Both the position numbers and the translations under genes were made by a program. From positions 1-64,000 of the forward strand of contig JAHFED010000030.1 of NCBI GenBank assembly GCA_023248635.1: a stretch of 64,000 nucleotides of DNA, read 5' to 3'. This DNA comes from Myxococcales bacterium. GTDB lineage: Bacteria; Myxococcota; UBA727; VGSZ01. The notes under the pieces are model-generated. The model was given only the letters and a program-made list of their open reading frames with translations, did not search any database and had not been told where the DNA came from. Position 1 is the stretch's first letter. Each line of letters begins with the position of its first letter. Shown here one piece after another: positions 32,749 through 64,000 of this stretch.

Positions 32749-35067
32749 TCAGCCCCCGAGCACCCGCAGCAACGCGGCCCGCAGCTGGGCCCGCGCCGCG
32801 TCGTCGACGACGGCGCCGTCGGCGCGCTGGGCCGTGAAGACGTCGGTGACGCGCGCTCCTTCGGTGTGCAGGCGGGCGACGCTGATGGACCAACCGCCGT
32901 CGGCGAAGGCTCGGGCCAGGTCGTGAAGCAGGCCCCGTCGATCGGCGCCGCGCACCTCGACCACGCAGGCGGGTCCGGCGTCGGAGAGGTAGCGCACGCG
33001 CGCCGGCACCATCGCGCGCGGCTGACCACGAGAGACCGCGTGCTGGGTGCCGGCCACAGCGGCGTCGAGGGCATGGGCGATGCGGCGGGCGGTCTCGGGC
33101 GGCAGGGGTCGGCCGCGGCCGTCGTCAAAGACGAAGGCGTCGAAGGCCGTGCCATCGCTGCGCACGTCGAGGCGCGCATCGAGGACACTGGCGCCCTCGC
33201 TGGCGAAGGCGGCGGCGAGATCGGCGAGCAGGCCTTTGCGATCGGCGGCTCGCACCCAGGCCCGTTGGGGCGCTTCGACGTCGACGACGGCGCCCTGCTT
33301 GGCGGACCACGCGGCGGCGTCTTTGCGCAGCTGCTCGGGCGTGCGGCCACGCAAGAAGGGCACCGAGGCTCCGTCGACGAAGGCCCGATGGGCTGGGGTC
33401 AGGGCCGCCAGCGCACGACGGCGCACATCGTCGTCGGCGCGGGCACGGGTCTCAGGCGTGAGCAGGGCCTCGCGCACGGCGTCGACGCAGACGCGCAACA
33501 GCTGGGCCTTCCACAGCGTGCCGATGCCGGGACCCACCGCGCACCAGTCGCACCAGGTGAGGATCGCGAGGGCATCCAGGCGCGCAGGCGTGGTGACCAC
33601 GCTGGTGACGTCGTCGATCACAGCGGGATCCCCCAGATCACGGCGCTGGGACGTCGTCGACAACAGCAGGTGGTGCAGCACCAAGAAAGCAACGTCGTCG
33701 ACGTCGTCGGCGTCGAAGCCGACCCCTTCGAGGGTCTCTCTGGCGATGCGAGCGCCGGCTTCGCTGTGATCGCCGGGCAGACCTTTGCCGATGTCGTGCA
33801 GCAGCGCGGCGGCGACGACGACGGCGGGTCGTTCGATGCGCTGCACGAGGGGCAGGAGCGCAGCCGGCAGCGCGAGATCGCCGAGCACCTGGGCCCCGGC
33901 GCCGCCGACGATGGCGCTGGCGATGTCGCCGCATCGAGCGAGGTGGGCATCGGTGGTGAAGGCATGGATGCCGTCGTGCTTCACGCGACCGGTGAGACGC
34001 GCCAAGTCGGGCAGCAAGGGCTGCAGCTGTCCCCGCTCGAGCAGGCCAGTCAGCGCGCCGGGAAACACCGCCTCCATCGACGACAACAGCGTCGCCAGGG
34101 CCGGGCTCTCGTTGCGCGCTCTTTTGGGCAGCGCGCCCGGGGCGAAGCGTTGCAAGGCGTCGTCGACGACGACCAGGGCTTGGCGCATGACGACCACGAC
34201 GCGGCGCACCAGGGCTTCGCCGGGGCGCAAGGGGCTCCCTGCTTTTGAGCCGCTGGCACGGCTCAAACAACCTGGGCCGGGGTGTGCGGGCAGCAAGGCG
34301 GCGGCGGCTTCTGCGGCGGCGGCGTGCAGGCGGTGCTCTGCGCGGCCGGCGGCGGTGACCAGGCCGCAGCGCACGGCGAGCAGCTCGCTGCGCACGGCTT
34401 TGAGCACCTCGATCTCCGAGGGAAAGAGCACCCCGGCGGCCAACAACACCGGCAAGACATCGTCGGCGCCGACGTCGACGCCCGAGGTGCACAACCCCAC
34501 CCAGCCCAGCAAGTGGAGGTCGCGCAGCCCTCCGGGTCCGTCTTTGATGTCGGGTTCGACCAAGCTCGGTGAGTGGTGGAAGCGGGCCCGCCGGGCGAGG
34601 GCTTCGTCGACGCGGGCCATCATCAAGGCCTGTCGACGTCGACTCCCCAGGTCTCGACGCAGCTCGCTGAGCACGGCGGTGGCACAGGAGATGTCGCCGG
34701 CGATGGGGCGGGCCTCGAGCAGCGCGGTGGCGGCGTGGCCAGGCTTGCCCGCGACGTCGTCGAACAAGGCCAGCAGCTCTCCCGGCGTGCGCACCGACCA
34801 CGAGACCTGCAGACCGGAGTCCCAGCAGCGTGAAACGATGGCGCCGACGTCGACGGCAGCTAGATCGGGCACGAGAAAGAGCGCATCGACGTCGGCGAAG
34901 GGCAGCAGCTGTCGACGGGCCAGGCCGCCCAGTGCGAGCACCGCGCTGCCTGGGGGAAGAAGGCCAGCGGCTGCTCGCACGCGCTCTTCGACGTCGGCGG
35001 AAAAAGCCCGGGCCATGACGTCGCCGGGCTGGGCCAGCAGCAGGGCGCGCAGCTCGTCGCTGGTCAT
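32749..35067 (-). CDS. glnD: PII uridylyltransferase/uridylyl-removing enzyme
   Basis: Encodes 772 residues. Domains in order: nucleotidyltransferase with DVD (59-61) after a divergent GGLARRQLLPF loop where GlnD proteins usually have GGYGRxEL; a helical region with EPDIKDGPGGLRDLH; an HD domain (AAALLHDIGKG); and two C-terminal ACT domains (AADRKGLLADLA and GADRRGLLHDLA). It senses glutamine and modifies PII proteins. A hairpin repeat also found at the right edge is inserted in frame around residue 270, encoding RASGSKAGSP. The start overlaps the amidase stop (TGATG), so it is the last gene of a coupled operon. Confidence 0.9.
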   Translation of the reverse strand: MTSDELRALLLAQPGDVMARAFSADVEERVRAAAGLLPPGSAVLALGGLARRQLLPFADVDALFLVPDLAAVDVGAIVSRCWDSGLQVSWSVRTPGELLALFDDVAGKPGHAATALLEARPIAGDISCATAVLSELRRDLGSRRRQALMMARVDEALARRARFHHSPSLVEPDIKDGPGGLRDLHLLGWVGLCTSGVDVGADDVLPVLLAAGVLFPSEIEVLKAVRSELLAVRCGLVTAAGRAEHRLHAAAAEAAAALLPAHPGPGCLSRASGSKAGSPLRPGEALVRRVVVVMRQALVVVDDALQRFAPGALPKRARNESPALATLLSSMEAVFPGALTGLLERGQLQPLLPDLARLTGRVKHDGIHAFTTDAHLARCGDIASAIVGGAGAQVLGDLALPAALLPLVQRIERPAVVVAAALLHDIGKGLPGDHSEAGARIARETLEGVGFDADDVDDVAFLVLHHLLLSTTSQRRDLGDPAVIDDVTSVVTTPARLDALAILTWCDWCAVGPGIGTLWKAQLLRVCVDAVREALLTPETRARADDDVRRRALAALTPAHRAFVDGASVPFLRGRTPEQLRKDAAAWSAKQGAVVDVEAPQRAWVRAADRKGLLADLAAAFASEGASVLDARLDVRSDGTAFDAFVFDDGRGRPLPPETARRIAHALDAAVAGTQHAVSRGQPRAMVPARVRYLSDAGPACVVEVRGADRRGLLHDLARAFADGGWSISVARLHTEGARVTDVFTAQRADGAVVDDAARAQLRAALLRVLGG
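34244..34267 (-). repeat. Hairpin repeat copy inside glnD
   Basis: Plus strand TTTGAGCCGC, loop TGGC, ACGGCTCAAA: ten-base arms with one mismatch beside the loop, preceded by CTCCCTGCT. This matches the repeat unit and spacer of the array at 63572-63733. It is multiple-of-three compatible with the glnD frame and lies in a variable linker between the transferase and HD domains. Confidence 0.75.
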
Positions 35068-60788: not shown

Positions 60789-63503
60789 GTGTCGAAGTTC
60801 GCGTCGACAGGCGACGGTGTGCCACGCTCCGCCGCAGTGGCTCCCAGGGTACTCGTCTGTCTCGAGGACACTACGGTCGCCGTCGTCGTCACCGGAAGGC
60901 TGATGCGCGACGGCGTGGACGGTGTCGTCGTCGACAAGCCAGCGAAGCTCGTCGAGGAGGCTCGCAAGGGCGCCGTCACTCTGGTCGTGCAGGATCGCTA
61001 CGCCAGCGGCGACATCGGTTCGTCGCTGCTGCGGCAGGTGCGGGTGGCGCGGGGTGAGGTGCTCCCCGCCGTCGTCCTCGTCACCGGCGACCTGGCGGCC
61101 CCCGATCGGCACGTGCTCGAAAAGCAATACAAAGTGCAGGTCTTCCTGCCGATGGGCTCAAGCCCCCTGCACATCGCCGAGGCCCTGCGGGGTGCCGGCG
61201 GCCTGCGCAAGCACAGCCCCGACAAGAGCGAAGACGACCTGGTGCTGCACGAAGACGAGGTGAAAAACGACTTCGACATCTCCATCGAGAGCCAGGCCGC
61301 CCAGATCGACGCCGCCTTCAACGGCGCCTTCGACGACGAGGAAGACGTCAGCCTCAAGACCGTCGAGATCTCCCAGGCCGAGCTCCAGCGCCTGAAGAAG
61401 ACCGGCGCGCTGGGGGGGACCCCCCGCACTGCGGCCGAGCAGGAGATGAGTGCGCGGCGCATCCACGAGGAGATCACCAACAACACCGCGCCGGGCGCCC
61501 AGACGGTCGAGAGCGACATCGTCGACAAACCCATCGACCTGTCCGAGCTGCCCGCGCCCGGTGGCGACAACGACTTCGACTTGCGCGACGGACCAGCGAC
61601 CGCCAAATCCCCAAGCGCTCCGGCGACGACGTCTTCGCCGGCACCTCCTGCGCAGACCACGCCGCCAGTGTCTGCGCCCCTGGTACCCCAGCCGATTTCG
61701 GTCGCCGCCGCCGTCGTCACGCGCCCTGCGCCCCCCAGCCCGACAGCGACGGGAAACGGCGCGCCCAAACACTCCACACCTTCGCTCCCCCCTCCCCATG
61801 ACCCGCCGTCGGTGGCCGCTGACGATGAGGAAGACCCCATGCAGATCCAGGAACTCCAACGGACCCAGGCCGAGCTCAAGCGCGCGCTGCTCGCGGAGCG
61901 CAAGGCCCGAGAGACGGCGCAAAAGAGAGTCGAAGAGCTCGAAGCGCGGCTGACCAAGATGGGTGAGGCGCCGACGTCGACGGGCCAGGGTGTCCCCGCC
62001 GAGGGCGTCTTCGAGGATCTGCGCTACCCCGCGTTGTTGGCGCGGGCGCGTGCCGAGGCGTTCACGGGCTCCATCGCGATGGCAACGGGCGGAGCGACGC
62101 GCACCGTCTACTTGAAGGACGGCCTGCCGGTGGCCTTCTCGTCGAGCGAGCCCGGGCAGCGCATCGGCAAGGTGCTGGTCTCTCAGGGCCGCATCACCGA
62201 CGAGCAATACATGAAGGCCGCGACGCGCATGGTCGAGAAGAGCATCAAGCTCACCGACGCGTTGGTCGAGCTCGGCCTCATCGACGCCGAGAGCCTCGCC
62301 ATCGAGCAGCGCAACCTCACGCGCGATCAGATCATCCAGGGCTTCGAGATCGTGCAGGGTCGGTTCACGACGACAGCCGGCGCCGCCCCCGACGTCAACA
62401 CCGCCACCTTCGACTTCGGTCCCGGCGAGATCTATGTGCAGGGCTACCGACGCTATGCGCCTCCCAGCGAGATGCTCGCGGGCTTCGAGACCCTGCGCGA
62501 CAAATACCTGATCGCGAACGCGAGGCTCGCGGGCTTCCGCGCCAAGCTCGGGCTTTCGGGCGAAGATGAGCGACTCATCCGGCTGCTGGGCGAGGCTCTC
62601 ACCGTCGAAGAAGCGGTGGAGCGCGCGAGCTTGACCGCCGAGCACTGTGCGCGCCTGTTGGCCGCCCTCCAGGCCCTGGACCTCGTCGAGGAATGGAGTC
62701 CCGGGGTCGAACAATTCCGCAGCCGCATCCGCGCTGAACGCCAGCGCCAGGCCGAAGAGATCACAGCGCACCACCAGGAACAGAAGCGTCGCGAGGATCG
62801 CCTGCTCGAGGCCTTCGAGCGCGCGCTGAACGGTCGTGGTGACGCTTCGTCGCTGCGGACGGCCATGGGCAGCCCCCTGGTGACGACGTCGGCGGAGCGA
62901 CTGCCTGAAAAGCGCGAAGAAAAGCGCGAAGAAAAGCGCGAAGAAAAGCGCGAAGAAAAGCGAACCCAAGCCGCGACCCCCTTTGCGAAGGACGCGGCGA
63001 GCAAACCCCCATCGTCGTCGTCGACCCTCGCTTCGACGCTGTCGTCGGCCATGGCTTCGCCGTCGGCGCCTTCGTCGGCGTCTTCGTCGTCGCCGCCCTC
63101 GATCAGCGCGTCCCCGTCGTCCTACTCTTCTTCGTCGTCGACGGCCTCGGAACCTTTCCTCACGCCCATCGCCGCCGCCCCCGCCGCGACGGCGCCGCTG
63201 ATCCCCACACCCACCCCCGAGGTCTCGTCGCCGGCAGACAAGAAGTATCGAGAGGGCATTGAGCAGGCGTCGCAGAACCGCTTGGACGAAGCCGAGCTCA
63301 CGCTCCGCGAAGCCGTGCGGCTCGACGCCACCCGTCCGGAATATTTGACCTCGCTGGCGCGGGTGCTGCTTGAGAACCCCCGCTACGAGCGGGCGGGCAC
63401 CCTGCCTGTCGTGCGTTCCCTCCTCGACCGGGCCGTGCAGATCGCACCCGACCACACCGAAGCCGTCGACCTTCACAAGCAGGTGATTGCCGAGATGGCT
63501 TGA
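60789..63503 (+). CDS. Receiver-like / DUF4388 (PATAN) / TPR signalling protein
   Basis: Encodes 904 residues if GTG 60789 is used; GTGs at 60819 and 60837 are alternatives. The N-terminus is a receiver-like domain (RVLVCLEDTT, then LVVQDRYASGD and VVLVTGD). A long linker precedes a coiled coil (ELQRTQAELKRALLAERKARE) and a DUF4388/PATAN domain (ALLARARAEAFTGSIAMATG). A Lys/Arg/Glu repeat (EKREEKREEKRE) and a Ser-rich linker follow, then C-terminal TPR-like helices (DEAELTLREAVRLDATRPEY). This layout is common in delta-proteobacterial gliding and Frz-like signalling. No enzymatic output domain is seen. Confidence 0.82.
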   Translation: MSKFASTGDGVPRSAAVAPRVLVCLEDTTVAVVVTGRLMRDGVDGVVVDKPAKLVEEARKGAVTLVVQDRYASGDIGSSLLRQVRVARGEVLPAVVLVTGDLAAPDRHVLEKQYKVQVFLPMGSSPLHIAEALRGAGGLRKHSPDKSEDDLVLHEDEVKNDFDISIESQAAQIDAAFNGAFDDEEDVSLKTVEISQAELQRLKKTGALGGTPRTAAEQEMSARRIHEEITNNTAPGAQTVESDIVDKPIDLSELPAPGGDNDFDLRDGPATAKSPSAPATTSSPAPPAQTTPPVSAPLVPQPISVAAAVVTRPAPPSPTATGNGAPKHSTPSLPPPHDPPSVAADDEEDPMQIQELQRTQAELKRALLAERKARETAQKRVEELEARLTKMGEAPTSTGQGVPAEGVFEDLRYPALLARARAEAFTGSIAMATGGATRTVYLKDGLPVAFSSSEPGQRIGKVLVSQGRITDEQYMKAATRMVEKSIKLTDALVELGLIDAESLAIEQRNLTRDQIIQGFEIVQGRFTTTAGAAPDVNTATFDFGPGEIYVQGYRRYAPPSEMLAGFETLRDKYLIANARLAGFRAKLGLSGEDERLIRLLGEALTVEEAVERASLTAEHCARLLAALQALDLVEEWSPGVEQFRSRIRAERQRQAEEITAHHQEQKRREDRLLEAFERALNGRGDASSLRTAMGSPLVTTSAERLPEKREEKREEKREEKREEKRTQAATPFAKDAASKPPSSSSTLASTLSSAMASPSAPSSASSSSPPSISASPSSYSSSSSTASEPFLTPIAAAPAATAPLIPTPTPEVSSPADKKYREGIEQASQNRLDEAELTLREAVRLDATRPEYLTSLARVLLENPRYERAGTLPVVRSLLDRAVQIAPDHTEAVDLHKQVIAEMA
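62907..62962 (+). repeat. 12-nt tandem repeat encoding EKRE
   Basis: GAAAAGCGCGAA repeats exactly four times (from 62907, 62919, 62931 and 62943) plus a partial fifth. It encodes a highly charged linker in the DUF4388 protein. Identical copies without drift suggest recent slippage. Confidence 0.85.
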
Positions 63504-63558: not shown

Positions 63559-63571
63559 AGAAGCACCGATG

Positions 63572-63733
63572 TTTGAGCCGTTGGCTCGCCGCAAGGTGCT
63601 TCCTGCTTTGCGCCGTTGGCACGGCTCAAAGGGCCGCTGTTTGAGCCGTTGGCACGGCTCAAAGTACCTCCTGCTTTGCGCCGTTGGCACGGCGCAAAGT
63701 ACTTCCTGCTTTGCGCCGTTGGCACGGCGCAAA
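63572..63733. repeat. Array of five hairpin (REP-like) repeats
   Basis: Units start at 63572 (degenerate), 63607, 63640, 63675 and 63710, period 33-35. Each is a ten-base stem around loop TGGC. Two stem versions occur, TTTGAGCCGT and TTTGCGCCGT, each paired with its own complement at 63640, 63675 and 63710; the 63607 unit is a hybrid. Spacers share TCCTGC. A related copy is inside glnD (34244). Confidence 0.88.
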
Positions 63734-63803: not shown

Positions 63804-64000
63804 ATGCGCGTCGTCGTCGTCGTCGGAAGCGTGCTCTTGCTCTGTGCCCTGGCAGGGTGCGAGGACTGCGTTGGGCCCGTCAATGGAGCCGATGCGGGTC
63901 CTGGCGAAGGCGAAGGCGAAGGCGAAGGCGAGGGCGAGGGCGAAGGCGAAGGCGAAGTTGTTCTGTGCGGCCCGACGACCGCCGGTTTCGGCGAACCCTG
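63804..64000 (+). CDS. Glu-Gly-linker lipoprotein, partial at right edge
   Basis: ATG 63804 opens a frame that leaves the window (65 visible codons). MRVVVVVGSVLLLCALAGC is a textbook lipoprotein signal with LAGC lipobox. The mature start EDCVGPVNGADAGP leads into a Glu-Gly repeat of about nine units, then VVLCGPTTAGFG. It is the same class of surface protein as the RCC1-like gene at 59453. The C-terminal domain is outside the window. Confidence 0.78.
   Translation, partial: MRVVVVVGSVLLLCALAGCEDCVGPVNGADAGPGEGEGEGEGEGEGEGEGEVVLCGPTTAGFGEP

Follow-up and report, generated by a model that had tools for sequence, protein, structure and literature searches.

TGGC-loop hairpin arrays in a Myxococcales genome: a probable lineage-restricted superfamily of non-autonomous mobile units

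Introduction

Is the array of short hairpins near the end of a 64,000-nucleotide stretch of a Myxococcales genome a local duplication, a set of structures each kept by selection, or part of a family that has moved through the genome? The stretch (positions 1 to 64,000 of contig JAHFED010000030.1, assembly GCA_023248635.1) is referred to here as the window. An earlier note, made from its letters alone, described the array as REP-like, with compensatory stem changes and possibly moved by a RAYT-type transposase; the spread of REPs is described as still poorly understood (PMC3733652; PMC8266576). Our analysis of the source genome and its relatives indicates that the array is probably a cluster of one stem family, F1, belonging to a superfamily of mobile but non-autonomous hairpins that is restricted to this lineage and likely moved in trans by an HUH-type enzyme.

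Results

The array and a lone unit in the window

The array comprises five units at 63563-63733, whose hairpins start at 63572, 63607, 63640, 63675 and 63710 (spacings of 35, 33, 35 and 35); zero F1 units are expected in shuffled window sequence. In arrays, one unit is 33-35 bp long and consists of a leader, 9-12 nt overall, followed by a 24-nt hairpin with a 10-bp stem and the TGGC loop. Since the 5' leader belongs to the unit, the array starts at 63563, ahead of the previously given 63572. The features are listed below, with z values from shuffle folding.

63563..63595, + strand: unit 1, a decayed F1 hairpin (3 mismatches to the consensus) behind the leader GCACCGATG; z -0.30, the level of shuffles
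63596..63630, + strand: unit 2, 11-nt leader and a mixed-type F1 hairpin with a stem C opposite T; z -2.05
63631..63663, + strand: unit 3, 9-nt leader and a perfect A:T-type F1 hairpin; z -3.27
63664..63698, + strand: unit 4, 11-nt leader and a perfect C:G-type F1 hairpin; z -4.48
63699..63733, + strand: unit 5, 11-nt leader and a perfect C:G-type F1 hairpin; z -5.06
34232..34267, + strand: lone F1 unit of 36 nt including its leader, in frame within a glnD-like gene; hairpin at 34244-34267
32749..35067, - strand: glnD-like gene hosting the lone unit, with GlnD_UR_UTase, HD and ACT domains

The five units, the TGGC loop and the 33-35 bp spacing are as first described, but the ten-base stem is perfect in only three of the five hairpins (63640, 63675 and 63710). 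Likewise, the two self-complementary stem alleles that had been proposed hold for units 3 to 5, but not for unit 2, with C opposite T at that position, nor for unit 1, which folds like shuffled sequence. The stray copy reported in glnD does lie within a gene with the GlnD_UR_UTase domain. GlnD orthologs from outside the genus show 31-40% identity to this protein and rarely align over the linker. The gene is unmatched in two genomes of the same genus (G001 and G002) and one of the same family (G003), yet it is matched in 39 of 146 genomes of the phylum, the source genome included. Two other kinds of repeat lie near the array: tandem repeats with a short unit of about 12 bp (GAAAAGCGCGAA) at 62911-62963, within the DUF4388/TPR gene upstream of it, and GGCGAA/GGCGAG hexamers at 63900-63957, which open the next gene and belong to a low-complexity repeat frequent in G001-G003 as well.

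Stem families with a common loop

The source genome (6.53 Mb in 135 contigs, 96.74% complete, with a G+C of 66.7% in its first sample) contains 375 matches to F1 (165 forward, 210 reverse) and 459 to F2 at up to 3 mismatches, and the reversed-pattern controls gave 0 in both cases. The earlier note had asked for such a search, and its outcome excludes the case in which only the copies of the window exist. The true copy number is probably above this count because arrays sit at contig ends (units were found at the ends of C48, C51, C56 and C66).

Further families emerged when 704 kb of the source genome were searched for recurring hairpins. The F2 hairpin reads TTCAAGACGC-TGGC-GCGTCTTGAA; F3 (TTCATCGCC-TGGC-GGCGATGAA) and F5 (CTTCMGGCGC-TGGC-GCGCCKGAAG) were counted in sampled stretches. 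The four stem families have self-complementary stems of 9-10 bp and one loop in common. In the source genome sample, TGGC/GCCA makes up 223 of the 382 hairpins with 4-nt loops, versus 3 of 50 in G001, and it lies outside the eight commonest 4-nt loops in G002 (239 hairpins) and G003 (177). F3 often alternates with a second hairpin lacking the TGGC loop (TTCACCGACA-N10-TGTCGGTGAA), the two forming a 63-bp composite (L049:12893-13052, L053:232-316 and L063:4415-4562). The same 704 kb hold 16 copies of a separate dispersed repeat, F4, built around GGGAGGTCTGGTGCAGACCTCCC with flanks conserved on both sides (for example L040:3379, L042:14898 and L059:9900).

The families were hardly found beyond this genome. 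None of the repeats in the parts sampled from G001 (168 kb), G002 (374 kb) and G003 (400 kb) forms a hairpin family, and the F1 pattern has no match in these three genomes. Within a set of 58 genomes of relatives it was found in the source genome and in G045 only, the latter with one single 3-mismatch match. A covariance model (R1) applied to 195 genomes of the phylum, with up to 35 candidates scored per genome, recovered the source genome and one weak match in G124. The exact F1 pattern is absent from genome_contigs, the exact F1, F2 and F3 patterns are absent from viral_contigs, and one F1/F2 array gave no match to plasmids.

Stem changes between and within families

Between stem types, 7 of the 10 stem pairs change on both sides (24 units, 23 of them distinct). 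Pairing holds in 93.9% of the cells of the between-family alignment, whose covariation score of 0.506 (0.181 in shuffles) is somewhat overstated because the rows were picked partly for pairing (from hairpins in which 7 or more of the 10 pairs form). Within families, by contrast, one-sided changes that break a pair dominate; these counts are free of the choice for pairing, although finding the units did depend on their resemblance to the consensus. Among distinct copies, F1 has 91 such changes, 31 that leave a G-T pair and 13 two-sided changes, 4 of them compensated; the corresponding numbers for F2 are 91, 15 and 16, with 12 compensated. At the F1 position read earlier as an allele, 169 sampled copies carry C:G (83), A:T (53) or T:A (2), and the remainder are unpaired (C/T 25, A/G 5, A/C 1). 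Conservation of the loop does not clearly exceed that of the inner stem, with 0.030 versus 0.035 changes per site in F1 and 0.056 versus 0.062 in F2.

The proposal that compensatory changes reveal selection for folding is therefore borne out between stem families and fails within them. The combination of strong covariation between families and decay within them leads us to infer that folding is needed for spread, not for staying in place; since within-family changes mostly break pairs, selection on each resident hairpin is not demonstrated. These counts bear on the idea that selection at each site keeps the units as elements of RNA or DNA structure (terminators, stabilisers of mRNA or protein-binding sites). 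The strong folding of perfect copies fits that idea; the predominance of pair-breaking changes goes against it, as does the result that no Rfam family reaches its gathering score for the units.

Arrangement of the units and insertion into genes

The arrangement was studied in 71 stretches of the source genome (1,169,103 bases), with genes called by a purpose-made codon-usage caller. It is important to consider that 36 of these stretches (the window, one counted by range, and L032-L066 with the duplicate L056 removed) were chosen around listed F1 copies, whereas most of the rest come from places without a listed exact F1 copy; the F1:F2 ratio in the sample consequently has no meaning. The sample holds 355 units in 140 clusters, of which 74 are single units and the largest has 18. 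Among the 66 multi-unit clusters, 60 lie on one strand, head to tail, and the commonest spacings are 35 (92), 33 (63), 34 (30) and 63 (14).

With respect to genes, 105 of the 140 clusters are wholly intergenic between two called genes: 50 in co-directional gaps, 32 in divergent and 23 in convergent ones, the gap bases being 71,475, 41,926 and 19,059, respectively. Another 21 clusters lie in genes, 6 extend across gene ends and 8 are at stretch edges. Convergent gaps alone are slightly over-used, as they hold 23 of the 105 clusters versus 14% of gap bases, a bias that selected structural elements would explain; the clusters in divergent gaps and inside predicted genes speak against them, and we regard site-by-site selection as improbable. 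A reading of the units as terminators only was rejected, as the use of divergent gaps roughly matches the proportion of gap bases that they contribute.

Two in-gene units could be sized. In a HEAT-repeat protein (L054:9140-10804), 11 amino acids at the unit are missing from the orthologs in 4 of 4 genomes (G001, G002, G003 and G005); they correspond to 33 bp, the sum of a 9-nt leader and a 24-nt hairpin, and thus to the precise insertion of a single unit. In a histidine kinase (L050:435-3917), the two conserved blocks around the unit are separated by 31 residues versus 20 in four other kinases, again a difference of 33 bp; this comparison uses four paralogous domains, a fifth row (L176) having been left out because it is unaligned over that part. 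As judged from orthologs in one gene and paralogous domain length in the other, what inserts precisely is a single unit of the array length.

No extra target duplication is visible at these two insertions, which are preceded by CACA and CACC, not TGAA. IS200/IS605 elements insert on the 3' side of a fixed tetranucleotide, and no target duplication results. We counted TGAA directly before the leader, leaving out mixed-strand clusters, clusters lying too close to an end and any with a probable older unit upstream (similarity of at least 10/18). It occurs in 27 of 49 F2 clusters, 2 of 29 F1 clusters, 0 of 9 F5 clusters and 20 of 30 F3 clusters, in the last case mostly as the end of the companion hairpin, and GAA makes up 1.5% of intergenic trinucleotides. 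F2 units thus show a statistical preference for the position just 3' of TGAA, which is either their target or carried along with them.

Six arrays mix families; in all of them F1 lies 3' of F2 or F3, and five are joined at an exact unit boundary. In addition, private variants are shared within some arrays, such as the 18-unit array in L038 with its changed 3' arm. Such variants are what local tandem duplication would leave, and duplication likely contributes to array length. That it produced the arrays by itself is very improbable: there are hundreds of dispersed copies, more than half of the sampled clusters are single units, and the in-gene insertions and mixed-family arrays do not follow from it. 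Local duplication was consequently rejected as a full account on the evidence of the dispersed copies and the in-gene insertions.

A RAYT-like protein without its catalytic motifs

The earlier note had also pointed to a RAYT-type transposase and suggested looking for a Y1 gene. Our search of the source genome with PF01797 (Y1 transposase) returned 0 matches, a result that is not final because the assembly is incomplete. The NF047646 model finds one protein, P0002 (C9:359453-360406, equal to L190:961-1914), with an E value of 1.7e-10 and 43 bits versus a cut-off of 80; no working copy of the expected enzyme was found. Near its C-terminus P0002 has a DnaA-type helix-turn-helix scoring 29.2 bits, just below the cut-off of 31.5.

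The HuH motif and the tyrosine are important in RAYT-type enzymes (PMC8266576). In our alignment, where the placing of both is our own reading, all 7 same-phylum relatives have H-x-H and the tyrosine, as do 11 of 12 further homologues. P0002 has S-E-V-R at the HxH position, and its orthologs have N-E-L-R (G001), N-A-V-R (G003) and Q-E-I-R (the L233 MAG); the tyrosine is replaced by W in P0002, G001 and G003 and by A in the L233 MAG. To judge from these residues, P0002 is very likely inactive, and it is the one RAYT-like protein that the searches found.

The P0002 family shows 66-80% identity across four genomes of one family (L190, L231, L232 and L233), and its orthologs are kept in relatives where the repeats were not found. 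The nearest named relatives are MAGs of Myxococcales and Deltaproteobacteria, and P0002 has no relative in the PDB. Its sequence would fit a RAYT-derived protein with lost motifs, a candidate domesticated hairpin-binding protein.

These observations bear on whether the units are classical REPs or REPINs moved by an active RAYT that is missing from the draft assembly. Arrays break contigs, and an array-flanked RAYT gene could have been lost with a small contig left out of the assembly; the units at contig ends and the completeness of 96.74% agree with this, and Y1_Tnp matches occur in 36 of the 58 genomes of the relatives set. One F3 unit also lies 16 bp from the P0002 stop codon, which is weak evidence because an F3 unit occurs in a gap next to 36 of 787 genes. 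Against an absent RAYT, the units run head to tail and not as inverted pairs, none of the 355 carries the GTAG tag, and Y1_Tnp gives no match in G002 and, in G001 and G003, weak ones that go back to the same P0002-type protein without the motifs. We consider this explanation possible but not probable.

Discussion

As far as the sequence tells, the units behave like REPs, and we favour a superfamily of hairpins moved in trans. Single units would insert precisely at new sites, without detectable extra target duplication. The 3' foot of a resident unit (TTGAA in F2, ATGAA in F3, CAAA in F1) may then serve as an insertion site, so that later units stack head to tail behind it; the unit junctions are seen in the arrays, and it is from them that we infer the stacking. 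Local tandem duplication may lengthen arrays further, as the private variants within them suggest. A unit would have to fold on one strand to spread, and copies would decay after insertion; the proposed requirement for one-strand folding would explain why the stems of different families differ in paired positions around a fixed loop. By analogy with REP/RAYT or IS200/IS605, the process may be a single-strand, hairpin-recognising HUH-type transposition in trans. The mobilising enzyme could be lost or of an unrecognised type, and an active one may be missing from the draft assembly. More tentatively, and in our opinion unlikely, the units could form a third class of palindromes lacking the GTAG or CGTC tag, recognised by the TGGC loop with stems free to vary, using the 3' foot as insertion site and moved by a non-Y1 enzyme.

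In this genome, several families of stems around a common loop occur in one cell, the in-gene insertions have a known length, and the arrays keep a record of the order of insertion; with this combination, the requirements for recognising a moving REP-like hairpin become testable. A further outcome is the record of a RAYT-derived gene that has lost its active-site motifs throughout a myxobacterial family.

Comparison with known repeat systems

Among the papers listed by our literature searches on RAYTs and hairpins and on REPs and palindromes in myxobacteria, we found no description of these units, and a search on inactive RAYTs listed no paper. Most REPs are assigned to a GTAG or a CGTC class in PMC3733652, which names no known transposase for CGTC-tagged REPs and also mentions REP-like families without a terminal tag. 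Like GTAG REPs and REPINs with RAYT/TnpA-REP, described as palindromes of 20-50 nt in high copy, the units are mostly intergenic and sometimes in genes, with several types per genome related by stem changes (PMC3733652; PMC8266576). They differ in their 5' feet (CTGC, ATGG, GATG, CAGG and ATTG; GTAG in 0 of 355), in a head-to-tail order unlike the inverted pairs of REPINs and BIMEs, and in that no intact tnpA-REP gene was found. The REP/REPIN likeness first suggested holds for short, genome-wide dispersed, mostly intergenic units with single in-gene insertions; it is not supported for the tags or for a working RAYT.

CGTC REPs are described with stems of 8-9 bp whose first two positions are A/T pairs, loops of 4-5 nt and no dedicated transposase known (PMC3733652). 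The stems of F1-F3 resemble these, with 9-10 bp, a TT start, an AA end and a loop of 4, and F5 starts with CT; none of the 355 units has CGTC at the 5' foot or its complement at the 3' foot, and the head-to-tail arrangement, called negligible as dimers of CGTC REPs in PMC3733652, is here the rule. With IS200/IS605 elements, whose single-strand transposition is treated in PMC8266576, the units share a one-strand hairpin, no extra target duplication at the sites seen and, for F2, a preferred TGAA on the 5' side; they differ in having one hairpin and no transposase gene per unit, and in that TGAA is a preference only, not seen in F1. Because both tags are absent (0/355), we file the units as REP-like and as members of neither class; the untagged REP-like families mentioned in PMC3733652 are likewise palindromes without a conserved terminal tag.
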